From Kosakonia radicincitans DSM 16656 (GTDB lineage Bacteria > Pseudomonadota > Gammaproteobacteria > Enterobacterales > Enterobacteriaceae), in NCBI RefSeq assembly GCF_000280495.2, contig NZ_CP018016.1, forward strand, positions 2,356,001-2,420,000: a DNA stretch of 64,000 bases. Reading direction: 5' to 3'. The number at the start of each line of letters is the position of its first letter. The stretch's first letter is position 1. The position numbers and the translations under genes were made by a program. The notes beneath the pieces are model-generated. The model saw only the letters and a list, made by a program, of their open reading frames with translations, made no database searches and was not told the origin of the DNA. Positions 39,998-51,341 of the stretch are shown in pieces.

Positions 39998-40495
39998 TTG
40001 ATGACCACACCTTCGTTATCTATTGCCAATGAACTGGGGCGGTTGTTAACGGAAAAGAAGCTGCAACTGGCGACGGCGGAGTCCTGCACCGGCGGGATGA
40101 TCGCCTCGTCGTTGTGCGCAGCGGAGAATACCCCGTCGTTCTATGGCAGCGGGTTTGTGACCTTTACCGACGAAGCCAAGATGATCATGCTTGGCGTCAG
40201 TCGCGAAACCCTTACCGCGCACACGGCGGTAAGCGAACAGGCCGTTATCGAGATGGCGGCGGGCGCAGTGCGCCAGTCGCAGGCGCATATCGGCATTGCG
40301 GTCAGCGGCTACGCCGGGCCGGACGGTGGCGAAGATGGCACGCCAGCGGGCACGATCTGGTTTGCCTGGCAGCTAGCCGACAACAGCGTGCATACCCGGG
40401 TGAAACAGTTTACCGGCGACAGCGAAGCGAATATCAAAGAGGCCACTAATTATGCCCTCGGTCGATTAATTCGCTTATTAGCTGAATCGGACTAA
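39998..40495 (+). CDS. CinA-like nicotinamide-nucleotide amidohydrolase (PncC family)
   Basis: The 165 residues form a stand-alone CinA C-terminal domain, which deamidates nicotinamide mononucleotide to nicotinate mononucleotide in NAD salvage. Signatures are LATAESCTGGMIASSLC (catalytic Ser region), GSGFVTFTDEAKMIMLGV, HTAVSEQAVIEMAAGAV and AVSGYAGPDGGEDGTPAGTI. The usual family phrase is AVTGIAGPxGG; here the Thr is Ser and Ile is Tyr. The protein is a YdeJ-type paralogue rather than PncC itself. It starts 48 bases after the alcohol dehydrogenase, with GGAG 10 bases upstream of ATG. Confidence 0.87.
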   Translation: MMTTPSLSIANELGRLLTEKKLQLATAESCTGGMIASSLCAAENTPSFYGSGFVTFTDEAKMIMLGVSRETLTAHTAVSEQAVIEMAAGAVRQSQAHIGIAVSGYAGPDGGEDGTPAGTIWFAWQLADNSVHTRVKQFTGDSEANIKEATNYALGRLIRLLAESD

Positions 40496-40580
40496 ATGCT
40501 GAAGAGCGCATACTGAAATAAAACAAGCGCAGCGGGAAATATAATCTGCCTGCTGCCGCCTGGCTGTTTTTTCCCGTACC

Positions 40581-40590
40581 TGGCTATAGT
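40581..40590 (+). promoter_or_regulatory. Possible RpoS-type promoter of the 25-codon ORF
   Basis: TGGCTATAGT offers a CTATAGT -10 box with no good -35 hexamer 17 bases upstream, a pattern used by sigma S. It lies 33 bases before the 25-codon ORF. Confidence 0.4.
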
Positions 40591-40622
40591 GAAAAATCTG
40601 CGTAAATAATGAGGAGGTAACA

Positions 40623-40700
40623 ATGTTACAGGTTGAAAAAGACGATCCCCATGAAGCACCGGAATCCGGCGATAAAAAACCCGTTCCGCCAAAAAAATAA
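40623..40700 (+). CDS. Small 25-aa hydrophilic protein (new small ORF)
   Basis: Twenty-five codons (protein MLQVEKDDPHEAPESGDKKP then VPPKK) run from ATG 40623 to TAA. GAGGAGG lies 5-6 bases upstream of the start, one of the strongest ribosome sites in the window. A strong intrinsic terminator begins 10 bases after the stop, and a possible promoter is upstream, so it looks like a self-contained unit. The peptide has no hydrophobic segment; the first half is acidic and the end basic and proline-rich (KKPVPPKK). I do not recognise it. It resembles in style the small stress-induced proteins of enterics, and it follows a stress-gene run. Confidence 0.72.
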   Translation: MLQVEKDDPHEAPESGDKKPVPPKK

Positions 40701-40710
40701 TCGTGAACAG

Positions 40711-40732
40711 GGCCACACGCGTGGCCTTTTTT
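40711..40732 (+). terminator. Intrinsic terminator after the 25-codon ORF
   Basis: Stem GGCCAC / GTGGCC with loop ACGC, followed by TTTTTT. It closes the plus-strand stress run and isolates the formate dehydrogenase operon downstream. Confidence 0.88.
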
Positions 40733-40737
40733 AACGG

Positions 40738-40925
40738 CATAAGAAAATACCTAAATATCTCTGGATAAGGCGATGACCGCCTGACATTTTGGCCGCCATG
40801 TTGTAGCGGCTATTTTTAAACATCATCGATACGTCATGTAAAAAAACTCGCTGCGTACACACGCGGAAGGTGAACATTTCCCCGCAGACGGGAACGGGCG
40901 TAGAGGATGGGTCTGAGGAAGCAAA
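40738..40925 (+). promoter_or_regulatory. Leader region of the formate dehydrogenase operon
   Basis: No gene is seen. A hairpin GCCGC / GCGGC (40792-40810) followed by TATTTTTA resembles a weak terminator. No FNR box or sigma-54 element could be recognised. The promoter of the operon should be here but I cannot place it. Confidence 0.35.
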
Positions 40926-43898
40926 ATGAGCCTGCAAAAATGTACCGTAATTTACGACGGCCAGGCCCTTGTTGGCCCGGCGGACATCCCCCTGATCGAT
41001 TTTCTCGATGCCTGCAACAGGACCTTACCCCATGTCTGCTACCACCCGGCGCTGGAGCCGCTGCAAACCTGCGATGTGTGCTGGGTGGAACAGGCGGGGA
41101 AACTGGTGCGCGGCTGTACGCTACGCAGCCACGAAGGCCTGGTGATCAACAGCGCCAACCCGCACGCCAGCGCTGCCCGCGAAGAGGGAATGGATCGCCT
41201 GCTGGCGAAACATGAGCTCTACTGCACGGTCTGCGAACACAACACCGGCGACTGTACGTTGCACAACACCATGGTGGACATGCATCTGCCGATCCAGCGC
41301 TATGCGTGGCAGCGTAAACCCTACGTGAAGGACGAATCCAACCCGTTTTACACCTACGATCCCGATCAGTGCATCCTGTGCGGGCGCTGCGTGGAAGCCT
41401 GCCAGAATGTGGAAGTGAACGAAACGCTGAGCATTGATTACACGCAGGAGCATCCGCGCGTTTTGTGGGATGGCGGCACGCGGATTGCGGGTTCCAGTTG
41501 CGTCAGTTGCGGCCATTGCGTCACGGTTTGCCCCTGTAACGCGCTGCTGGAAAAAACCATGCAGCCTGATGCCGGGCCGTTTACCTCGATGCGCCAGTCG
41601 CTGAAACGCCCGTTAATTAATGTGGTGAAGGCGCTGGAAAATACCATCGGCGCGGAGATCGTTTCCGGGGTGTCTGTGATCGATACCCAACTGCGCCAGC
41701 AGGAGATTAAACGCACCAAAACGGTCTGCACCTACTGCGGCGTGGGATGCAGCTTTGAGATGTGGACGCGCGATCGCCATCTGCTGAAAGTCCAGCCCGT
41801 CACCGACGCGCCCGTCAACGGCATCTCCACCTGCGTGAAGGGGAAATTCGCCTGGGATTTTATTAACAGCCCGGAGCGGCTGACCACGCCGCTGATCCGC
41901 GAAAACGACCACTTCCGGCCTGCTTCCTGGGAGGAGGCGCTGGATCTGGTCGCCAGACGGCTGCTGGCGATCCGCGATGAAACCGGGCCGGACAGTATCG
42001 GTTTTATTGGCTCCAGCAAAGGCAGTAATGAAGAAGCCTACCTGACGCAAAAAATCGCCCGGCTGATTATCGGCACCAATAGCGTCGATAACTCCTCGCG
42101 CTACTGCCAGAACCCGGCCACCGAAGGGCTGTTTCGTACCGTGGGTTATGGCGGCGATGCGGGCACCATTGCGGATCTGGCGCAGGCGGAGCTGGTGGTG
42201 ATTGTCGGCAGCAATACGGCAGAAAACCATCCGGTGATTGCTTCACGGCTGAAGGCCGCGAAAAAACAGCGCGGCCAACAGTGGCTGGTGGTCGATCCGC
42301 GCCGCCATGAAATGGCCGAACGCGCCGATCAGCATCTGCGTATTCACCCCGGTACCGATCTGGTCTGGGCCTCGGCAATGTCCCGCTATATGTTTGACCA
42401 TGGCTACGCCGACGAGGCGTTTCTCTCGCAGCGCGTTAACAATGTCGAGGCGTACCGCCGCTCGCTTGAGCCCTTCACCCTCGATTATGCCGCGCAAATT
42501 ACCGGCATTCAGGAAGCGGATCTGCGCGCAGCGGCGGAGCGGATTGGCCGCGCGGGCAGCGTCTGCATCATGTGGGCGATGGGCATCACCCAGCACAGCC
42601 ACGGCGCAGATACCAGCACCGCGCTCTCCAACCTGCTGCTGGTGACCGGCAACTACGGGCGGCCGGGCACCGGCGGTTATCCGATGCGCGGGCATAACAA
42701 TGTGCAGGGAGCCAGCGATTTTGGCTGTCTGAAAAATTTCTATCCGGGATATGAATCGGTCAGCGATCCGCAAGTGCGCGAAAAGTGGGCACGCGCCTGG
42801 GGCGTAGACCCGCAGCGGCTTTCGCTGGAGGTGGGCGAAGACAATTTCATGATGGTCAAACTCGCCAGAAGCGACCAGCTTCGCGCGATGTATGTGATTG
42901 GCGAGGAGACGGCCTTTTCCGATGCCGATACCACCAATGTGCACCAGGGATTTAGCGAGCTGGATTTTCTGGTGGTGCAGGATCTGTTTCTCAGCCGCAC
43001 CGCGCAGTTCGCTGACGTGGTGCTGCCAGGCTGTCCCAGCGTGGAGAAAGAGGGTTCGTTTGTTAACACTGAACGGCGCATTCAGCGTTTCTACCCGGTG
43101 ATGCCACCGCTCGGCGACAGCCGCCCGGACTGGCTGATCCTGACTCAGCTTGCCGCGCGGATGGGCTTCGACTGGGGCTATACCCATCCAGGGCAAATTA
43201 TGGCCGAGGTGGCAAGCATCGCCGGGAGTTTTGCGGGTGTCAGCTATGAGCGGCTGGAGGGCTGGAAATCGCAACTCTGGCCGGTGAAGGCGGATGGCAG
43301 CAGCACGCCGCTGCTTTATACCAACACATTCAAAAGCGCGGATGGCCGCGCCACGCTCTATCCGGTGAGCTGGCAGCCCCCGGCGGAAGAGGCGGATGCC
43401 GACTACGATCTGCTGCTGAATAATGGCCGCATGCTGGAGCACTTTCAGTCCACCAACCAGAGCGGCAGAGGCGGGCGCACCACCAGCCTTTCCCCCGAAT
43501 GGTATGTTGAAATCAGCCCCGAACTGGCGGCTGGCCGCAGCCTGAACACCGGCGACTGGGTCAGGCTGAGTTCCCGCCGTGGCGCGCTGGAGGTTCCGGT
43601 GGTGGTCACCGAACGGGTGCAGGGCAAGGTGCTGTTTATCTCGATTCACCAGGGTAAAGAGGGCATCAATCAGTTGACTGGTGAACATCACGATCCGGCG
43701 GTGAATACGCCAGCCTATAAAGAGATCGCTATCCGCCTCGACGCGCTCGACAGAACGCCCCATCCCAATCCTTTACCGGAACATAACTTCCGCCACGGTA
43801 AGCGTACCCCCATCACCGGGGTGCCGGTGGAAGCGAAATGGCGTCGCGACGATTACCGCGAGCCGCCGGAACATGAACCTCATCCGGAGAAATTTTAA
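40926..43898 (+). CDS. Formate dehydrogenase, molybdopterin catalytic subunit with N-terminal iron-sulfur domains (FdhF/YjgC type)
   Basis: This 990-residue cytoplasmic enzyme oxidises formate to CO2. Four electron-relay regions come first: a [2Fe-2S] ferredoxin domain (Cys38, 49, 52, 64), a NuoG-like His/Cys cluster (His96, Cys100, 103, 110) and two 4Fe-4S motifs (Cys149-152-155-159 and Cys192-195-198-202). Then the catalytic domain has its own cluster (VCTYCGVGC, then TCVKGKF). The active-site residue is Cys394 in SSRYCQNPATEG, not selenocysteine. The combination with the DUF1641 gene matches Bacillus YrhE-YrhD and YjgC-YjgD. It has no Tat signal or membrane part. GAGGAAG precedes ATG 40926. 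The stop overlaps the next start by one base. Confidence 0.93.
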   Translation: MSLQKCTVIYDGQALVGPADIPLIDFLDACNRTLPHVCYHPALEPLQTCDVCWVEQAGKLVRGCTLRSHEGLVINSANPHASAAREEGMDRLLAKHELYCTVCEHNTGDCTLHNTMVDMHLPIQRYAWQRKPYVKDESNPFYTYDPDQCILCGRCVEACQNVEVNETLSIDYTQEHPRVLWDGGTRIAGSSCVSCGHCVTVCPCNALLEKTMQPDAGPFTSMRQSLKRPLINVVKALENTIGAEIVSGVSVIDTQLRQQEIKRTKTVCTYCGVGCSFEMWTRDRHLLKVQPVTDAPVNGISTCVKGKFAWDFINSPERLTTPLIRENDHFRPASWEEALDLVARRLLAIRDETGPDSIGFIGSSKGSNEEAYLTQKIARLIIGTNSVDNSSRYCQNPATEGLFRTVGYGGDAGTIADLAQAELVVIVGSNTAENHPVIASRLKAAKKQRGQQWLVVDPRRHEMAERADQHLRIHPGTDLVWASAMSRYMFDHGYADEAFLSQRVNNVEAYRRSLEPFTLDYAAQITGIQEADLRAAAERIGRAGSVCIMWAMGITQHSHGADTSTALSNLLLVTGNYGRPGTGGYPMRGHNNVQGASDFGCLKNFYPGYESVSDPQVREKWARAWGVDPQRLSLEVGEDNFMMVKLARSDQLRAMYVIGEETAFSDADTTNVHQGFSELDFLVVQDLFLSRTAQFADVVLPGCPSVEKEGSFVNTERRIQRFYPVMPPLGDSRPDWLILTQLAARMGFDWGYTHPGQIMAEVASIAGSFAGVSYERLEGWKSQLWPVKADGSSTPLLYTNTFKSADGRATLYPVSWQPPAEEADADYDLLLNNGRMLEHFQSTNQSGRGGRTTSLSPEWYVEISPELAAGRSLNTGDWVRLSSRRGALEVPVVVTERVQGKVLFISIHQGKEGINQLTGEHHDPAVNTPAYKEIAIRLDALDRTPHPNPLPEHNFRHGKRTPITGVPVEAKWRRDDYREPPEHEPHPEKF

Positions 43899-44377
43899 TG
43901 GCGAAATCGATTGAGTATCAGCCGGAACCGGCAAAAATCGGGCCGGACGCCCACGAAGAACTGGATCGCCTGCTGGAAACCCTGCACCAGCACGGCGTGC
44001 TGCGGTTACTGAACGATCTGGTCGCGGCGAACAACGAAGTCGCGCAGATCCTCGTCAACGGCTTGCAGCGCCAGGGTACGCTGAATGCCATCCAGAATAT
44101 CTCGCTGATGCTGATGGCGCTCTCTTCACTGCCGCCGGATCGCGTCTATAAACTGGCCTTTGGCCTGCGTGATTTGGCAGAGGTGATAAGCCAGCCAAAA
44201 GCGGATGATGAGGAAAAAGCGCCCGGCGTACACGGGGCGTGGAAGATGTTGCAGGATGACGATCTGTGGCGTGCGTTACGGCCGCTGCTCCATGGGCTGG
44301 CGGCGTTTTCCCGGCGGATGGAGGAGTCGGTAGACAAGCCGATATCCGCCTTTACCGGTAAGCCCAGCGATGCCTGA
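43898..44377 (+). CDS. DUF1641 formate-dehydrogenase partner (YrhD/YjgD-like)
   Basis: The 159-residue soluble helical protein has the DUF1641 pattern: LDRLLETLHQHGVLRLLNDLVAAN, NEVAQILVNGLQR, NAIQNISLMLMALSSLPP and a Pro/Asp-rich link to the GVHGAWKMLQDDDLWRALRP segment. In Bacillus the same family is encoded directly after the FdhF-like subunit, so it is probably a partner in assembly or electron transfer; the activity is not known. Here its start overlaps the fdhF stop (TAATG), and its end overlaps the start of a bd-oxidase subunit by 8 bases, so the pair is tied to a terminal oxidase. Confidence 0.88.
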   Translation: MAKSIEYQPEPAKIGPDAHEELDRLLETLHQHGVLRLLNDLVAANNEVAQILVNGLQRQGTLNAIQNISLMLMALSSLPPDRVYKLAFGLRDLAEVISQPKADDEEKAPGVHGAWKMLQDDDLWRALRPLLHGLAAFSRRMEESVDKPISAFTGKPSDA

Positions 44378-45761
44378 CATCAGCCCGGAAACGGCCCTGC
44401 TGCTGGCGCGTACGCAATTTGCTTTTACCATCGGCTTTCATATCGTGCTGGCGGCGTTCACCATTGGCCTCGCGCAGTTTCTGATGCTACTGGAAGGGAT
44501 GTGGCTTTGGCGCAGGCAGCAGGTCTGGCTCAGCCTGTGGCGCTACTGGAGCAAAATCTTCGCCCTTAATGTTGCCGTCGGCGTGGTGACCGGCGTGGTG
44601 ATGGAGTTTGCTTTTGGTACCAACTGGAGCGGGCTGGCGAGCCGGACAGGCGCGGTGCTCGGACCGATGCTCTATATGGAAGTGCTGGTGGCGTTCTTTC
44701 TTGAAGCCGGTTTTATGGGCGTGATGCTGTTCGGCATGGGCAAGGTGCGGCCGTGGGTCCATTTTATGGCGACCTGCATTGTGGCGCTGGGATCGTTTTT
44801 CAGTGCTTTCTGGATCCTCGCGGCGAATTCGTGGATGCAAACGCCGGACGGTTTTGCCATCGGCGCGGATGGACGCTTTCGTCCCGTGGACTGGTGGGCA
44901 GTCATTTTTAACCCGTCGTTTCCGTGGCGGATGGCGCACATGGTGGCGGCCGCGCTGCTCGGCACCGCCTGCCTGGTGGCGGCCAGCGGCGCATGGCATT
45001 TACTGCGCGATGCGCGTCATCCGGCGGCGCGCAAAATGTTCTCTCTCGGCATGTGGATGCTGGTGGTAATGGCACCGCTGCAAATCGTGCTCGGCGATCT
45101 GCATGGCGAAAACACCCGCGATCACCAGCCGGTAAAACTGGCGGCGATGGAAGGGAGCTGGAACCCGCCGCCGCCGGGCGAAGGCGAGCCGATGCGGCTG
45201 TTTGCGCTGCCGGATATGGCCGAACAGCGTAACCGTTATGAAGTCGCCATCCCCAATATCGGTTCGCTCTATCTGCGCCATAACCTGAGCGGTACCATTC
45301 ATAGCCTCAATCAATACCCCGCCGACGAGCGACCATGGGTACCGCTGGTGTTCTGGTCTTTTCGCCTGATGGTCGGCCTTGGTCTGTTGATGGCCACGGC
45401 GGGTATTGCCGGGCTGGTGGTGCGCCTGCGCGGCCGTCTGTGGCGCGCGCGCTGGCTGCATAAACTGATGGTGCTGATGGCACCCGCCGGGTTTATCGCC
45501 ATGCTGGCGGGCTGGGTGGTGACGGAAGCCGGACGCCAGCCGTGGACGGTATATGGCCTGCTGCGCACCGACGAAAGCGCATCGCCGATAGCCCCGGGTT
45601 TACTGCTGGGTTCTCTGGCGACGACCGTCACCGTTTATCTGCTGCTGTTCAGCCTCGGGCTGTGGTTTCTGCTGCGTTTGCTCGCGCACCCGCCGCAGCC
45701 GGACGAAGAGAGCGCAATGCCAGAAGTGGCGCAACGCACGGGAAGAGGAACCGATGAATGA
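44370..45761 (+). CDS. Cytochrome bd oxidase subunit I, CIO type (copy 1)
   Basis: The 463-residue heme-binding quinol oxidase subunit has about nine membrane helices. Ligands are seen as His24 (TIGFHIVLAAF, equivalent to E. coli His19), the His in WRMAHMVAAALLG (His186 equivalent) and the Met in FWSFRLMVGLG (Met393 equivalent). The Q-loop is short (VKLAAMEGSWNPPPPGEG), with the Lys and Glu that contact quinol kept; this marks the cyanide-insensitive (CIO) subfamily. The sequence GWVVTEAGRQPWTVYGLLRT is intact. It differs clearly from copy 2 at 47896-49296. ATG 44370 lies within the end of the DUF1641 gene. Confidence 0.92.
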   Translation: MPDISPETALLLARTQFAFTIGFHIVLAAFTIGLAQFLMLLEGMWLWRRQQVWLSLWRYWSKIFALNVAVGVVTGVVMEFAFGTNWSGLASRTGAVLGPMLYMEVLVAFFLEAGFMGVMLFGMGKVRPWVHFMATCIVALGSFFSAFWILAANSWMQTPDGFAIGADGRFRPVDWWAVIFNPSFPWRMAHMVAAALLGTACLVAASGAWHLLRDARHPAARKMFSLGMWMLVVMAPLQIVLGDLHGENTRDHQPVKLAAMEGSWNPPPPGEGEPMRLFALPDMAEQRNRYEVAIPNIGSLYLRHNLSGTIHSLNQYPADERPWVPLVFWSFRLMVGLGLLMATAGIAGLVVRLRGRLWRARWLHKLMVLMAPAGFIAMLAGWVVTEAGRQPWTVYGLLRTDESASPIAPGLLLGSLATTVTVYLLLFSLGLWFLLRLLAHPPQPDEESAMPEVAQRTGRGTDE

Positions 45762-46741
45762 GTGACGTGTTGGGTTTACCCTGGCTGCAAACGCTGTCGG
45801 CGGCGGCGCTGGTGCTGAGCGTGTGGATCTACGTGCTGCTTGATGGCACCGATCTCGGCACCGGTATGCTGTGTGGATTGCAGCGCGATGCCGCTTCCCG
45901 TAAGACGATTAATCTCTCATTGCTGCCGGTGTGGGACGGTAACGAAACCTGGCTGGTGCTGGCGGCAGGCGGGCTGCTCGGGCTGTTCCCGCTGGCGTAC
46001 GCCATTATTCTCAGCGCGCTGTATGTCCCGGTTTTTGCCATGCTGCTGGCGCTGGTCGTGCGTGGGATGGCGATCGAGTATCGTCACCACGTCCCGCGCC
46101 TGTTCGATGCGATGCTGGTGGGCGGCTCATTACTGGCGAGCCTCGCGCAAGGCACCATTGTTGGCTGTCTGATCGAGGGTATTCCGAATGACGGCCAGCA
46201 GTTTAACGGCACCGGCGGCGAGTGGTTCAGCCCGTTTCCTCTGTATTGTGCGCTGGCACTGGTGGTCGGTTACTGCCTGATGGGGGCCGGCTGGTTGAAC
46301 TGGCGCTGCACTGGAGCATTGCAACAGTGGGGCAGGCGCGCGATCCTGCCGCTTGGCGTGCTCGCCGCGTTACTGGTGGCGGGATTACTCTTCTGGACGG
46401 GGCACTTACAGGAAACCTGGCGTCGCCATCTGCTGAACCCGTGGCTGTGGCTGCCGATGCTCAGCGTGGCGGTAATCGCCGCCGCCGGGTTAGGGTTCAG
46501 CCTTGCGCGGCGCTACGCGTTTATGCCGCTGGCGGCGATCCTCGTGCTGGTGAGCTGTGCGTTGGGCGCGCTGGTGTTTACCCTGTTTCCGTTTATCGTT
46601 CCGGTTAATGTGATGATTCACCAGGCGGCCGCGCCGCCAGAAACGCAAAAATTTCTGTTGATCAGTTTTGCGTTACTGGCGCCCATTACGCTGCTTTATA
46701 ACAGCTGGGGATTTCGCGTTTTCAGCGGCAAGATTGAGTAA
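45758..46741 (+). CDS. Cytochrome bd oxidase subunit II, CIO type (copy 1)
   Basis: The 327-residue membrane partner of subunit I has about eight helices. Family signatures are LLDGTDLGTGML near the N-terminus (the DGFDLG-type motif), LLPVWDGNETWLVLAAGGL, and the C-terminal AAAPPETQKFLLISFALLAPITLLYNSWGFRVFSGKIE pattern in shorter pieces. Its start overlaps the subunit I stop by four bases (ATGA). No small DUF2474/CydX-like subunit follows on this strand; 16 bases on lies the end of the opposing operon. Copy 1 may therefore borrow the DUF2474 subunit of copy 2 or do without. Confidence 0.92.
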   Translation: MSDVLGLPWLQTLSAAALVLSVWIYVLLDGTDLGTGMLCGLQRDAASRKTINLSLLPVWDGNETWLVLAAGGLLGLFPLAYAIILSALYVPVFAMLLALVVRGMAIEYRHHVPRLFDAMLVGGSLLASLAQGTIVGCLIEGIPNDGQQFNGTGGEWFSPFPLYCALALVVGYCLMGAGWLNWRCTGALQQWGRRAILPLGVLAALLVAGLLFWTGHLQETWRRHLLNPWLWLPMLSVAVIAAAGLGFSLARRYAFMPLAAILVLVSCALGALVFTLFPFIVPVNVMIHQAAAPPETQKFLLISFALLAPITLLYNSWGFRVFSGKIE

Positions 46742-46757
46742 ACCTTCCCGCGTTGCC

Positions 46758-46886
46758 TTACGCGCGTAGCCCGGCCATTGACATCAGCAGCCTGAGCACA
46801 GAGCTGACGAGAAACAGGGCCAGCACGCTGGCAAACCACAGCCCAACAAACCACATGATTTTCGGTGCGCTACGTTTAAATGACAT
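46758..46886 (-). CDS. DUF2474 single-span small subunit of bd oxidase (copy 2)
   Basis: The start is ATG 46886 (MSFKRSAPKIMWFVGLWFAS), overlapping the subunit II stop (TGATG). The 42 residues are a basic N-terminus and one membrane helix (about 10-34), ending LLMSMAGLRA. This is the DUF2474 type of peptide found after cioAB and probably acts like CydX, stabilising the heme-bearing complex. A longer frame starting upstream is only an overlap artefact with subunit II. Confidence 0.85.
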   Translation of the reverse strand: MSFKRSAPKIMWFVGLWFASVLALFLVSSVLRLLMSMAGLRA

Positions 46887-47896
46887 CAGTGATACCCCGC
46901 GCCATGCTGGATTTTTCCGCGAAACACGTAGTAGCTCCAGAAGGTATAAACCAGGATCACCGGAATAATCAGCAGGGCACCAACCAGCATAAAGCCCTGG
47001 CTTTGCGGCGGCGCGGCGGCCTGCCACAGCGTGATATCCGGTGGAATAATATGCGGCCAGATACTGATGCCCAGCCCGCTAAAGCCGAGGAAAACCAGCC
47101 CCAGCGTCAAAACGAACGGCAAAATATGGTATTGCACGTTGCTCAGCGTATGCCATAACCAGACGCTGAAGAGGATCACCAGCAGCGGAACCGGGGCAAA
47201 AAACCAGATATTCGGCTGGCTGAACCAGCGTTCGGCGATCGCCGCATGGGAAAGCGGCGTCCACAGGCTGATCGCGGCCATCGCCACCAGCAGCGCCAGC
47301 AACAGCGTTCTGGCGACAACACGCATTTTCTGTTGCAGGTTTCCTTCACTTTTCATTACCAGCCAGCTGGCGCCCAGCAGGCCATAAGTGATGATCAGCC
47401 CAATGCCGCAGAACAGGTTAAAGGGCGTCAGCCAGTCGAGCGAACTGCCGCTGAAGGTGCGGCCGGTGACGGCAAAACCGTTGATCACCGCGCCGACCAC
47501 CACGCCCTGCATAAAGGTCGCCAGCAGCGATCCGGCGAGAAAGGACTTATCCCAGAATGGTTTGTGATTCGGCGTGGCTTTAAAACGAAACTCAAACGCC
47601 ACGCCGCGAAAAATAAGACCGATCAACATTAATGTCAGCGGAATAGCCAGCGCATCGGCGATCACCGCATAAGCAAGAGGAAACGCGCCAAAAAGCCCGG
47701 CGCCGCCGAGCACCAGCCAGGTTTCGTTACCATCCCACACCGGCGCGACGCTGTTCACCATAACGTCCCGTTCGCCGCCGTCCTGAATCGCCGGGAAAAG
47801 AATACCGATGCCCAGATCGAAGCCGTCCATCACGATATACATCAGCGTGGCAAAGACGATGATGACAAACCAGATAAGCGATAAATCGATGCCCAT
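46886..47896 (-). CDS. cioB: Cytochrome bd oxidase subunit II, CIO type (copy 2)
   Basis: The 336-residue protein has eight or so helices, with MYIVMDGFDLGIGILFP near the start, SVAPVWDGNETWLVLGG, FRGVAFEFRFKA and the end PVILVYTFWSYYVFRGKIQ. It is a fuller match to usual enterobacterial/pseudomonad CioB than copy 1. Its start overlaps the stop of subunit I by one base, and the DUF2474 gene overlaps its end, so the three form a standard cioAB-DUF2474 operon. It lies tail to tail with copy 1. Confidence 0.92.
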   Translation of the reverse strand: MGIDLSLIWFVIIVFATLMYIVMDGFDLGIGILFPAIQDGGERDVMVNSVAPVWDGNETWLVLGGAGLFGAFPLAYAVIADALAIPLTLMLIGLIFRGVAFEFRFKATPNHKPFWDKSFLAGSLLATFMQGVVVGAVINGFAVTGRTFSGSSLDWLTPFNLFCGIGLIITYGLLGASWLVMKSEGNLQQKMRVVARTLLLALLVAMAAISLWTPLSHAAIAERWFSQPNIWFFAPVPLLVILFSVWLWHTLSNVQYHILPFVLTLGLVFLGFSGLGISIWPHIIPPDITLWQAAAPPQSQGFMLVGALLIIPVILVYTFWSYYVFRGKIQHGAGYH

Positions 47897-49296
47897 TATT
47901 TTTTCTCCTCCGCCTGCAAACTTTCACCCGCCGCAGAGAGCGGGCGCGCCGGTCTGCCGTCGGTTGCGTGTTCATCCCAGGGCTGCGGTCCTTTCTTAAT
48001 CAACCGCACCATATAGCTGTAGCCGACGCCGAAGACTGAGGTGTACACCACGATAAAGGCCAGCAGGCTCAGGCTCATCTGTAAGGTGCTATGCAGGGAA
48101 ACCGCATCCGCCGTGCGCAGCAGCCCATAGACGACCCAGGGTTGCCGACCGACTTCGGTGGTCACCCAACCGGCAAGAATGGCAATCAACCCCGCCGGGC
48201 CCATGCACAGCGCGAAGTACAGGAAGGGGCGCGATGCATACAGCCGCTGGCGAAAACGTAACCACAACGCGGCAACGCCGAGCGCAATCATCAATAGCCC
48301 CATCCCGACCATCAGACGAAATGACCAGAAGACAATGGTGGAGTTGGGCCGATCCGCTTTCGGGAAATCTTTCAGCGCAGGCACTTGTTCATGCAGCGAG
48401 TGGGTGAGGATCAGGCTGCCGAGAGAAGGGATTTCTACCGCGTATCGGGTGCGCTCTTGTTCCATATCCGGCAAGCCAAACAACAACAACGGCGTGGCTT
48501 CACCGGGCGGATTTTCCCAGTGCCCCTCAATGGCGGCGATCTTCGCGGGCTGATGCTTCAGTGTGTTCAGGCCATGCATATCGCCAATAAAGGCCTGCAG
48601 TGGCGCAACGGCCAGCGCCATCCACATCGCCATCGACAACATTTTGCGGATTGCCGGTGTGTCATTGCGGTGCAGCAAGTGCCAGGCAGCGGAAGCGCCA
48701 ACGAAGAGGGCAGTGCTGAGGAACGCGGCAATGGTCATATGCAGTAAACGGTACGGGAACGAGGGGTTAAAAATGACCGCAAACCAGTCGACAGGGATCA
48801 CCTGACCATTTTCAATGGCAAACCCTTGCGGCGTATGCATCCAGCTATTAGATGCAAGGATCCAGAACGTGGACATCAGCGTGCCCAGCGCCACCATGCA
48901 GGTAGCGAAAAAGTGCAGCCCCGGCCCCACTTTATTCCAGCCAAACAGCATGACGCCGAGAAAACCCGCCTCAAGGAAGAAGGCGGTCAGCACCTCATAG
49001 GTGAGCAATGGCCCGGTAATACTGCCGGCAAACTGGGAAAAGCCGCTCCAGTTGGTACCAAACTGATAAGCCATTACCAGCCCGGAGACCACGCCCATGC
49101 CGAAGTTGACGGCGAAGATCTTCAACCAGAAGTGATACATCGCGCGCCAGTCGGGATTTTTGGTTTTCAGCCATAACCCTTCAAGCACCACCAGATAGCT
49201 GGCGAGCCCGATGGTGATAGCAGGAAAAATAATGTGAAACGAGACCGTAAAGGCGAACTGAAGCCTTGCCAGATGGAATGCATCGAATTCGAACAT
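47896..49296 (-). CDS. cioA: Cytochrome bd oxidase subunit I, CIO type (copy 2)
   Basis: The 466-residue subunit has the heme ligands His20-region (TVSFHIIFPAI), RLLHMTIAAFLS and SFRLMVGMG, a short Q-loop (KIAAIEGHWENPPGE) and ILAGWVTTEVGRQPWVVYG. It oxidises quinol and reduces O2 without proton pumping. A hydrophilic C-terminal tail rich in Glu/Ala/Pro ends the protein. The ribosome site before ATG 49296 is GGGG, and the terminator of the upstream catalase gene ends only 15 bases before the start codon, so any dedicated promoter must overlap that terminator or lie within the catalase gene. Confidence 0.93.
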   Translation of the reverse strand: MFEFDAFHLARLQFAFTVSFHIIFPAITIGLASYLVVLEGLWLKTKNPDWRAMYHFWLKIFAVNFGMGVVSGLVMAYQFGTNWSGFSQFAGSITGPLLTYEVLTAFFLEAGFLGVMLFGWNKVGPGLHFFATCMVALGTLMSTFWILASNSWMHTPQGFAIENGQVIPVDWFAVIFNPSFPYRLLHMTIAAFLSTALFVGASAAWHLLHRNDTPAIRKMLSMAMWMALAVAPLQAFIGDMHGLNTLKHQPAKIAAIEGHWENPPGEATPLLLFGLPDMEQERTRYAVEIPSLGSLILTHSLHEQVPALKDFPKADRPNSTIVFWSFRLMVGMGLLMIALGVAALWLRFRQRLYASRPFLYFALCMGPAGLIAILAGWVTTEVGRQPWVVYGLLRTADAVSLHSTLQMSLSLLAFIVVYTSVFGVGYSYMVRLIKKGPQPWDEHATDGRPARPLSAAGESLQAEEKK

Positions 49297-49364: not shown

Positions 49365-50240
49365 TTATTTCTCTTGCGGCTCTCCGCTACCCAGCTCTGC
49401 ACCGGTCAGCGGATCAACGCCGGGATCGGATTGCGTACGCTTCGCCATCGCTTTCACCAGCGCGCGCTGTTTATCGTTAAGTTGTACTGTGGCGAGGCCA
49501 TCGCCACCATCCACGGCAGGTTGCGGATCGGCCACGTAGTCGAAGTTCTCGTCGCTGTTCCAGCTTCCGCGCGGATCGTCGCCCTCGGACATGTTGTAGT
49601 ACACATTGCTGTACTGTTCGATGGGCGGCAATTTACCTGGCGGAAAGTTATTACGGATGGAATAGAGCGCTTTCTCGAAGGAGAGCTGATGCGCCGCTTC
49701 TCGCGTCATCAGGAAACTCAGCGCATCTTTAACACCCGGATCGTCCGTGACATTAATCAGCCGCTCGTAAATAATTTTCGCGCGTGCTTCCGCCGCAATA
49801 TTGGAGCGCATATCCGCCGTGACTTCGCCAATGGTATCAATATAAGCCGCCGTCCACGGCACGCCGCCGGAATTCGTCAGGGCAGGGCCGCCGCCATATA
49901 ACAGTGAGGTAATATGGCTGTCATTGCCATTGGCGGTTAAAGAGCGATAAAGTTCCGCCTCTTTTTCTGTCCCTTCGGCCAGTTCGCCTTTCGCGCCTTT
50001 ATTCAGCATGCCGACCAGAGTTCCAATAATTTCCAGATGGCTTAATTCTTCGGTGGCAATATCCATCAACATCTCTTTGCGGCCCACATCGTCATCACCC
50101 AGACCCTGAGTGAAATAACGGCAGGCGGCCGCCAGCTCGCCTTGCGGGCCGCCGAACTGTTCCAGTAAGAGGTTCGCCAGCCCTGGGTTTGGCTCGCTGA
50201 CGCGTACGGTGTACTGTAGTTGTTTTACGTGTCGAAACAT
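49365..50240 (-). CDS. katN: Manganese catalase (KatN)
   Basis: A non-heme catalase of 291 residues in which two Mn ions dismutate hydrogen peroxide. Metal ligands are seen in the ferritin-like core: GELAAACRY, ATEELSHLE, AEARAKIIYERL and TREAAHQLSFEKAL, the usual Glu/Glu-x-x-His pattern. The C-terminal part (FPPGKLPPIEQYSNVYYNMS, DPRGSWN) matches the Salmonella KatN family. It follows yciE by 21 bases, the known yciGFE-katN order of Salmonella. It gives the cell a second, heme-independent catalase besides KatG at the window start. A terminator follows. Confidence 0.95.
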   Translation of the reverse strand: MFRHVKQLQYTVRVSEPNPGLANLLLEQFGGPQGELAAACRYFTQGLGDDDVGRKEMLMDIATEELSHLEIIGTLVGMLNKGAKGELAEGTEKEAELYRSLTANGNDSHITSLLYGGGPALTNSGGVPWTAAYIDTIGEVTADMRSNIAAEARAKIIYERLINVTDDPGVKDALSFLMTREAAHQLSFEKALYSIRNNFPPGKLPPIEQYSNVYYNMSEGDDPRGSWNSDENFDYVADPQPAVDGGDGLATVQLNDKQRALVKAMAKRTQSDPGVDPLTGAELGSGEPQEK

Positions 50241-50261
50241 AAATTCTCCTGATGCTTTAGT

Positions 50262-50768
50262 TTATTTTTTAGCTTCCACACCGGCAGCGGTATCGCGAAG
50301 TAAAAATTGTTCGGTAACGTCGGGTAAATGATTAAACGCCCATTCAGCCATCGCTTTCTCTTCGGCAAGAATTTGTTTGAAAATATCGATGCTGGCAATA
50401 TCACCGACTTTTTCTGCCGCCGTAATTAATGACGTATAACAGGCAATTTCAAATTGCTCGAATACGTAGCTGCTAATTGAGCCTTTGACAACTTCATCAG
50501 AAGCAAACATGCCTCCAACGGCCTGACCCATCGCGCTCATTTTACTGGTGGCATCTTTCATTAATGAGCGATTAATATTGTTGCGATCGAGAACCTCTTC
50601 CAGAAGTTTAATTTGCCCTTTAGTTTCAGTTAAGTGTTGATCAATTCTTGCACGCAGGTCGGGATAATTATCGATGCGGCTGCTCATTGCGCTAAGCATC
50701 GATTCCGCTTGTTTTTCCATGGCGTGCGCGTCGCGTAGCCAGTCATGATAATTTTCTTGCGGCGTCAT
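50262..50768 (-). CDS. yciE: YciE, DUF892 ferritin-like stress protein
   Basis: The 168 residues start MTPQENYHDWLRDAHAMEKQ and contain SMLSAMSSRIDNYPDLRARI, SDEVVKGSISSYVFEQFEIA and the end DTAAGVEAKK, very close to E. coli YciE. The family folds as a four-helix bundle with two conserved Glu/His sites (FEIACYTSLI, EEKAMAEW) able to bind a dinuclear metal centre. The biochemical role is not established. It lies 78 bases after yciF in the operon. Confidence 0.95.
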   Translation of the reverse strand: MTPQENYHDWLRDAHAMEKQAESMLSAMSSRIDNYPDLRARIDQHLTETKGQIKLLEEVLDRNNINRSLMKDATSKMSAMGQAVGGMFASDEVVKGSISSYVFEQFEIACYTSLITAAEKVGDIASIDIFKQILAEEKAMAEWAFNHLPDVTEQFLLRDTAAGVEAKK

Positions 50769-50846
50769 AGTACATTCCTCTTTTTTGGGGCTGTCTCATT
50801 GACCCTGAAGAATAATATTATCAGGGATGACATCTGCTGGCGGTTA

Positions 50847-51341
50847 TTAGCTTCCAGCTTTTTGATTAATATTTGAAGTGGCTATTTTGGTAAGTAATGT
50901 ATCGGTGGTTTTTTCTTCTTCTAAGGTTTCAGCAAGTAATTGCTGTGCCTTTTTCAGACCTAACTGACTGGCGAGGGTACAAAGCGTGCCGTAAGAGGCA
51001 ATTTCGTAATGTTCGACTTTTTGTGCTGCTGCAATCAGCCCGGCATCGCGTACGCTGCCTTTTTCCGTGGCTTCAATGACTTCATTAGCTTCATCGATCA
51101 ACCCTTCCATGGCGTGACATTTCATACGCTTAAGCTTGATATTTGGCTCAGCTTCTACCAACTGATCGAGGCGCTCAATCTGCCCCTGGGTTTCTTCATA
51201 GTGCTTTTTGAAAGCTTCAGACAGCTCGCTGCTTGAAGATTCGCGCGCCAGTTTGGAGAGTGCGCGGGTCAGTTGCTTTTCCGCGCTGTAAATATCAGAG
51301 AGCGAATGAATAAATAGATCAGTAACGGAATTAATCTGCAT
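50847..51341 (-). CDS. yciF: YciF, DUF892 ferritin-like stress protein
   Basis: The 164-residue protein is almost the E. coli YciF sequence: FIHSLSDIYSAEKQLTRALS, HYEETQGQIERLDQLV, MKCHAMEGLIDEANEVIEAT, and QKVEHYEIASYGTLCTLA. Its helix bundle has the family metal-ligand residues in HYEIASYG and LEEEKTTD. It belongs to the osmotic, oxidative and stationary-phase stress group under RpoS in related species. It lies 98 bases after yciG. Confidence 0.95.
   Translation of the reverse strand: MQINSVTDLFIHSLSDIYSAEKQLTRALSKLARESSSSELSEAFKKHYEETQGQIERLDQLVEAEPNIKLKRMKCHAMEGLIDEANEVIEATEKGSVRDAGLIAAAQKVEHYEIASYGTLCTLASQLGLKKAQQLLAETLEEEKTTDTLLTKIATSNINQKAGS

Follow-up and report, generated by a model that had tools for sequence, protein, structure and literature searches.

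The stretch of DNA considered here (the window) comprises 64,000 nucleotides of Kosakonia radicincitans DSM 16656 (assembly GCF_000280495.2, contig NZ_CP018016.1, positions 2,356,001 to 2,420,000 of the forward strand), from a host genome of 6.12 Mb. Between positions 40926 and 46741 it holds four plus-strand genes whose products resemble, in order, the two subunits of the formate dehydrogenase ForCE and the two subunits of a cytochrome bd of the cyanide-insensitive oxidase (CIO) type. A preliminary description of this DNA had named the same four components, joined by overlaps of 1, 8 and 4 bases; coordinates and strands proved exact on recheck. As judged from sequence, the operon brings two known enzymes together in a new and conserved arrangement, and genome comparison speaks strongly for a dedicated formate:oxygen route. 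Near relatives of the operon stretch are found in Kosakonia oryziphila (ForC 98%) and K. arachidis (ForC 97%).

Table 1. Features of the operon and its surroundings (positions in the window)
Feature	Position	Strand	Description and basis
forC-like gene	40926..43898	+	990-residue catalytic subunit of a formate dehydrogenase, with NuoG-like Fe–S N-terminus; TIGR01591, ForC1 match
forE-like gene	43898..44377	+	159-residue small partner subunit, presumably a quinone/membrane adaptor; phmmer and profile match to ForE1
cydA-like gene	44370..45761	+	463-residue subunit I of a CIO-type cytochrome bd, ForCE-associated clade; PF01654, residue alignment, tree
cydB-like gene	45758..46741	+	cytochrome bd subunit II, 327 aa; PF02322
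Second CIO-type cydAB with DUF2474 gene (convergent neighbour, outside the operon)	46758..49296	-	Pfam; CydA type (relatives in L001, L002) in separate clade
Manganese-catalase-like and two ferritin-like genes (neighbours)	49365..51341	-	NCBIfam ManCatBAC 172 bits, below cut-off of 350
Upstream stretch with CTATTTTTAA (40810-40819) and block GATACGTCA (40828-40836)	40810..40836	+	alignment of 7 loci

The first gene product scores 790.6 bits against the NCBIfam equivalog for the formate dehydrogenase alpha subunit (TIGR01591; cut-off 666) and 1204 bits against Bacillus subtilis ForC1 (PDB 8rqz_C) over residues 7-980, with the iron–sulfur (Fe–S) cysteines and the CQ and RGH motifs aligned. The Pfam domains Fer2_4, NADH-G, Fer4 and Molybdopterin are recognised in it. 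The active-site cysteine noted earlier stands at residue 394 (codon TGC) and is followed by Gln395 (RYCQ at 392), and Arg588 opens the Arg-Gly-His motif (RGHN at 588). Wherever a motif scan gave a ForC-type site, at 34 fetched loci (several of which repeat a genome), the CQ/RGH pair is present; one locus (L045) has a CA/RGD pair in addition to CQ/RGH, and this extra pair was left out of the count. This CQ…RGH signature is given as the hallmark of the ForC subfamily by the study that purified ForCE1 and ForCE2 (PMC8808070). An ordinary FdsA-like, NAD-linked formate dehydrogenase was considered as well and excluded, since the protein has CQ and not CH and ForC1 is by far its best match in the PDB. 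That ForC might use another substrate, or reduce CO2, is very improbable: the glutamine after the active-site cysteine does depart from the classical C/U-His motif, but the B. subtilis enzyme, a formate oxidiser, shares CQ…RGH (PMC8808070), and the TIGR01591 score lies above its cut-off.

By profile comparison the second protein is a true ForE relative, although it scores only 12.4 bits against Pfam DUF1641 (PF07849), under the curated cut-off of 21. Of 50 ForE relatives, 12 reach PF07849 with E ≤ 1, the lowest value being 9.9e-4; when the host genome was scanned with PF07849 there was no match, since the ForE found here has diverged. A single-sequence phmmer search reaches ForE1 (PDB 8rqz_A) with an E value of 6.7e-4; the profile of 50 sequences places ForE1 first among all PDB chains (E 4.5e-8, runner-up 0.048) and aligns with the profile of Salinisphaera-type DUF1641 proteins (E 9.5e-30). 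The DUF1641 label given at first sight therefore names a real family relationship and falls short in the formal Pfam assignment, and the kinship seen with the Bacillus pairs YjgC-YjgD and YrhE-YrhD is confirmed by the ForC score and the ForE profile together. Two AlphaFold2 models of ForE are of low confidence (predicted local distance difference test, pLDDT, 49.6 and 53.6). One database match of ForE bears the name "helical membrane plugin", a phrase absent from the best 15 of 54 papers.

In B. subtilis, ForE is required for formate:menadione activity and for the co-purification of menaquinone, and it is predicted to be cofactor-less (PMC8808070); it is described as helping quinone binding (PMC8808070, PMC13397495). 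The authors of the former study point to relatives in proteobacteria and to DUF1641 genes in synteny (PMC8808070), and a 2026 review presents ForCE as a hetero-octamer, possibly in transient contact with the membrane (PMC13397495).

The oxidase half is, by its sequence, an intact CIO-type cytochrome bd, in agreement with the first assignment. Subunit I scores 518.7 bits against PF01654, and its 463 residues place it in the short Q-loop (CIO) type; subunit II scores 239.1 bits against PF02322. In an alignment to E. coli CydA and AppC the haem and quinol-site residues are kept (H24, E104, E112, H190, K256, E261, R332, M334 and E386), which we take to correspond to E. coli H19, E99, E107, H186, K252, E257, R391, M393 and E445. 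These residues bear on a route, entertained in the preliminary description, by which ForE would hand electrons to the oxidase without quinone. Gene order alone speaks for it, and it is scarcely credible: ForE1 and ForE2 are predicted to be cofactor-less and to mediate the use of menaquinone (PMC8808070), so that ForE would be a quinone-binding helper (PMC8808070, PMC13397495), and a CydA that keeps its quinol site is an oxidase built for quinol.

Conservation was assessed in a family sample of 392 genomes from 154 genera, searched with ForE, with the surroundings of all matches inspected. ForE is encoded in 33 of these genomes (14 genera), and cydA follows directly in 28 of the 33, in one case in broken reading frames (G028) and in another split over two contigs (G197). 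Because the adjacency recurs so often among forE-bearing genomes, it exceeds chance. CydA of the operon type (E ≤ 1e-159, a threshold that omits the diverged or fragmented linked copies of G028, G183, G197, G262 and G367) is present in 27 genomes, all 27 of them within the 33 that bear forE. The hypergeometric probability of this co-occurrence is 2.9e-36, or 1.8e-14 by genus (11 within 14 of 154), with relatedness ignored. The five genomes in which forE has no adjoining cydA are G103, G213, G286, G307 and G347; in G307 no CydA of the operon type is recognised, its best CydA being 51% identical and outside the tree described below. Comparison of stretches shows that three genomes repeat loci used elsewhere in the analysis (G072 = L001, G189 = L006, G363 = L005). 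Conservation of the gene order across genera supports the formate-linked, oxygen-consuming module first suggested. An accident of a single strain was considered and is ruled out by recurrence in the family, class and phylum genome samples.

In a tree of 56 CydA rows (exact duplicates removed, sequences below 400 residues dropped, unlinked copies selected from those fetched), a single clade with support of 100/100 takes in all 30 forCE-adjacent rows. The same clade holds four rows from catalase-containing islands, three from one genus (g103) and one from a Chimaeribacter plasmid, and the CydA of Paraburkholderia caribensis; the remaining 21 rows, including the type of the convergent neighbour and other CIO copies of the same genomes, fall on the opposite side. 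A ForC tree of 45 rows, built on about the last 500 residues, with three genomes present twice and a long-branch warning among distant rows, needs three changes of linkage label; there may have been one gain and two losses of the forC–oxidase linkage. The main subgroups recur in the two trees when these are compared by eye, which suggests that forCE and the operon-type oxidase have long travelled together and that in g103 they were mostly kept after separation. The four genes have apparently been together since before several carrier genera diverged, and transfer is also possible. At the P. caribensis locus (L118:4533-8401) the clade CydA lies divergent from a 775-residue protein that resembles ForC over part of its length (29%), hinting at another pairing of a molybdenum (Mo) enzyme with a cytochrome bd.

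A small DUF2474 subunit has been tied to subtype C of the CIO oxidases, among subtypes A, B and C (Degli Esposti et al. 2015, PMC5322542). A hidden Markov model built from sister-type peptides, which a quite different small subunit could escape, was run over about 460-600 bases downstream of cydB (47 linked-type and 38 sister-type rows before de-duplication). It finds a DUF2474-like gene behind 21 of 25 distinct sister-type cydB copies and behind none of 30 distinct forCE-linked copies, nor behind seven more copies of the operon's CydB type treated as unlinked in the count; in truth one of the seven, L141 from G197, is linked across a contig break, which leaves six. In the window, none stands behind the operon's cydB on its own strand. 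By this search the operon's oxidase lacks the small subunit that is tied to subtype C. The 2015 survey used few Enterobacteria and kept them out of its large CIO search (PMC5322542), so the operon's branch may have escaped it; the word "formate" is absent from its main text.

It is conceivable that the four products form a single respirasome-like unit, in which ForE would dock beside CydA in the membrane and channel quinone between both active sites. The overlaps of 8 and 4 bases might couple translation, the lack of a DUF2474-like gene might free membrane surface, and ForC and CydA share main subgroups in their trees. Such a supercomplex nevertheless seems a long shot: the ForE models are poor, the six unlinked copies without a DUF2474-like gene indicate that its absence tracks clade and not linkage, and B. 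subtilis forCE works with no oxidase neighbour.

Among loci from named genomes, the full operon is present at six of six (Kosakonia, Phytobacter and Enterobacter sp. kpr-6). Among the best 120 of 327 protein matches, listed by name and apart from gene context, ForE occurs in Kosakonia, Phytobacter, Franconibacter, Cronobacter sakazakii, Mixta, Pantoea, Erwinia, Halomonas, Kushneria, Pseudomonas, Dongia and Trinickia, among others. It is also found in 77 plasmid records, of which 67 are from Pantoea and seven were opened for gene context. The order forC-forE-cydA-cydB is seen on plasmid records of P. dispersa and P. ananatis and on one labelled Acinetobacter venetianus (L067, CP060162.1); the last has operon scores and a replicon cluster as in Pantoea plasmids and is possibly mislabelled. 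On P. agglomerans plasmid CP083808, DUF1641, fdhF and the oxidase are annotated together.

In the overlapping class (369 genomes) and phylum (398 genomes) samples, eight further genomes have a ForE match, and the pairing of forE with the oxidase is rarer than in the family. G971 has the full operon; in G1042, G1080, G670, G654 and G562 no cydA of either type is seen in the 13-14 kb examined; the ForE-bearing contig of G404 is only 5.3 kb long; and G1052 has forE, a 43-residue ForC tail as the only trace of ForC found, a catalase gene and a cydAB from a different lineage. ForE/DUF1641 genes with no intact forC alongside are found in this last genome (L101:9747-10226) and on two Burkholderia plasmids (L136:9001-9483, L137:8971-9453), whose stretches hold no fdhF; cydAB and a manganese catalase share the stretch in L101 and L136. 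Spread to E. coli was rejected, as a megablast of window positions 40926-46741 against 5,426 E. coli genomes gave no match, though one protein-database entry (P0001) carries an E. coli label.

We think it likely that the operon encodes a dedicated formate:oxygen respiratory route of two enzymes linked by quinone. In the cytoplasm, ForC would convert formate into CO2 at a Mo site with a Cys ligand (bis-pyranopterin guanine dinucleotide, Mo-bisPGD), and the electrons would leave this site through five Fe–S clusters. ForE would hold the membrane quinone at or near the ForC–ForE interface, where it would be reduced, and the co-encoded cytochrome bd would re-oxidise the quinol and convert O2 to water. 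The overall reaction would be HCOO- + H+ + 1/2 O2 → CO2 + H2O, plus proton uptake from the cytoplasm through the bd redox loop, and on established knowledge the route would therefore be a sink for formate and for acid alike. Coupling through quinone is suggested by the role described for ForE together with the quinol site kept in CydA. The path from formate to quinone, part of the original proposal, gains support from the homology of ForC and ForE to the purified B. subtilis complex, with its ForE-dependent formate:menadione activity (PMC8808070). The overlapping genes, with no sigma-70-like site on the plus strand in 40450-47000, also speak for the two-enzyme route.

Cytochrome bd is non-pumping, as the preliminary description said of the module, yet it is electrogenic, and energy should therefore still be conserved along the route. 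The quinone of Halomonas is ubiquinone; since forCE occurs in that genus, proteobacterial ForCE can probably use ubiquinone. The route would work without selenium, export by twin-arginine translocation (Tat) or NADH.

Downstream of the operon, and convergent with it, lies the second CIO-type cydAB, of whose type the host genome has two more copies. The manganese-catalase-like and ferritin-like genes beyond it are presumably katN/yciE/yciF-like. Over flanks of 12-18 kb per locus, such genes accompany 8 of 22 operon loci (L001-L004, L006, L057, L064 and L104; L105, which repeats L006, and the broken L140 are excluded), so this neighbourhood is frequent, not general. At five further loci, from g103 and a Chimaeribacter arupi plasmid (L098, L099, L100, L139, L119), the ForCE-type oxidase lies inside an island of catalase, ferritin and alcohol dehydrogenase genes and not behind forE. 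Genome G286 is 99.6% identical to the C. arupi plasmid over 9.8 kb, and g103 includes Chimaeribacter-like genomes. In g103 a transporter adjoins forCE, or a lone forE, at three loci (L053:10662-11849, L054:10269-11456, L056:5149-6345); by eye we take it to be benzoate-transporter-like. The Salmonella counterpart of the catalase/ferritin island is sigma-S dependent, according to a title cited in PMC5437024.

Upstream, the block GATACGTCA stands 82-107 bases before forC in L001-L006, L064 and L105 (Kosakonia, Phytobacter, kpr-6) and, with one mismatch, in L104; it is absent from the other regions among 31 forC-upstream sequences scanned. No FNR-like TTGA-N6-TCAA occurs in these 31 regions. In B. 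subtilis forCE1 is SigB-dependent (PMC8808070), and expression of yjgCD and yrhEFG rises with acid and benzoate (PMC2788229). These reports and the catalase/ferritin island opposite the operon are indirect evidence by which we take stress (acid, stationary phase) to be the most likely occasion for the route, when formate would be removed and protons and O2 consumed. A study of acid-stressed B. megaterium, in which a formate dehydrogenase is reported to rise at pH 4.5 along with a subunit of cytochrome o and not with a bd pair (PMC6208408), was considered and not used.

Several observations weigh against a dedicated route. ForCE genes occur with no adjoining cydAB on P. agglomerans pAJ2b_A and in the similar G307, in Halomonas sp. 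KO116 and the near-identical G1042 (99.5% identical to the KO116 stretch), and in G1080. Linkage thus varies within P. agglomerans, as CP083808 has the oxidase and pAJ2b_A does not, and from these cases and that of g103 the oxidase is a lineage-specific partner and not an obligatory ForCE subunit. Four of the five family genomes with unlinked forE belong to g103 and carry the operon-type CydA elsewhere, in a catalase/ferritin island; one of them, G347, has kept the oxidase and forE, with no forC found beside the latter. Conversely, the P. caribensis and C. arupi plasmids have a CydA of the operon clade and no forCE in the stretch examined.

The sigma-70 scan found 2 sites against 2.6 expected; as its null on the plus strand extends to the stretch ahead of forC, it locates no promoter. 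Over 21 of the 31 upstream sequences, chosen by ourselves, a stress-sigma -10 consensus, which we took to be KCTAYACTTAA, gave a combined p of 0.19. Finally, an in-frame TGA is present in three Mo-enzyme genes of the host (presumably those of formate dehydrogenases FDH-H, FDH-N and FDH-O), which also has one fdhD and, besides the operon's CydA, three others of CIO type and one of long type, so that the route would in part be redundant, an addition to existing enzymes.

Some of these facts would also fit co-regulation and nothing more: ForCE would feed the general quinone pool, the cytochrome bd would serve all dehydrogenases, and one stress programme would control both. Oxidases of the operon clade in katN/yciE/yciF-like islands with no adjoining forCE (four g103 genomes and the C. 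arupi plasmid), forCE without cydAB, and the SigB dependence and acid and benzoate induction of the Bacillus genes all agree with this. We hold it to be unlikely, if the most serious competitor of the quinone-linked route, because the overlapping genes, the single CydA clade of the 30 linked rows and the 27/27 co-occurrence argue for more than shared timing.

If the operon does encode a dedicated route, Kosakonia, Phytobacter and Pantoea, in which the operon is seen, would possess a compact, selenium-free and Tat-independent formate:O2 respiration, as perhaps would Cronobacter and Franconibacter, names under which ForE alone is seen. A distinct branch of cytochrome bd would acquire a function. 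The tie to an oxidase over many genera also names the probable electron acceptor of ForCE, whereas the available text of PMC8808070 names none past menaquinone for the Bacillus enzyme, and the aerobic role of the ForC-type formate dehydrogenase family becomes directly testable in tractable enterobacteria.

In the literature searched on DUF1641 or ForCE with formate dehydrogenase, cytochrome bd or the host genera, with subscription papers and bioRxiv largely outside its range, the four-gene operon was not found described, as judged by titles and listings, and ForCE is treated in PMC8808070 and PMC13397495 only. The initial statement that no named system has this composition holds for the combination of four genes and fails for its dehydrogenase half, which is the named, purified and structurally solved ForCE (PMC8808070; PDB 8rqz, 8rr0, 9gzq). 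Like B. subtilis ForCE1 and ForCE2 (YjgC-YjgD and YrhE-YrhD, formate:menaquinone oxidoreductases), the dehydrogenase found here has two subunits, a NuoG-like N-terminus with aligned Fe–S cysteines, the CQ…RGH motifs, and ForE encoded directly downstream, with a 1-base overlap. In contrast to the Bacillus systems, it shares one operon with a cytochrome bd, and its ForE lies below the Pfam DUF1641 cut-off. The quinones of the Kosakonia host include ubiquinone, unlike the menaquinone used by B. subtilis ForCE.

The same overall path from formate through quinone to oxygen is followed in E. coli by FdoGHI with cytochrome bo3 or bd. FdoGHI, a selenoenzyme, is exported by Tat, includes a cytochrome b subunit and is not encoded with an oxidase; the ForCE described here is, by its sequence, cytoplasmic, Cys-based and of two subunits. 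FdsA-type NAD-linked formate dehydrogenases have flavin/NAD subunits, and ForC scores 528 bits against 6tg9_A, presumably the alpha chain of the Rhodobacter capsulatus enzyme. Those of R. capsulatus and C. necator have the same NuoG-like extension on the catalytic subunit but CH where ForC has CQ (PMC8808070), and they have no ForE. The oxidase resembles known CIO-type cytochromes bd in its short Q-loop CydA of 463 residues, its CydB and its conserved haem ligands (PMC5322542); unlike subtype C, it has no DUF2474-like gene and belongs to a clade of its own that is tied to forCE.

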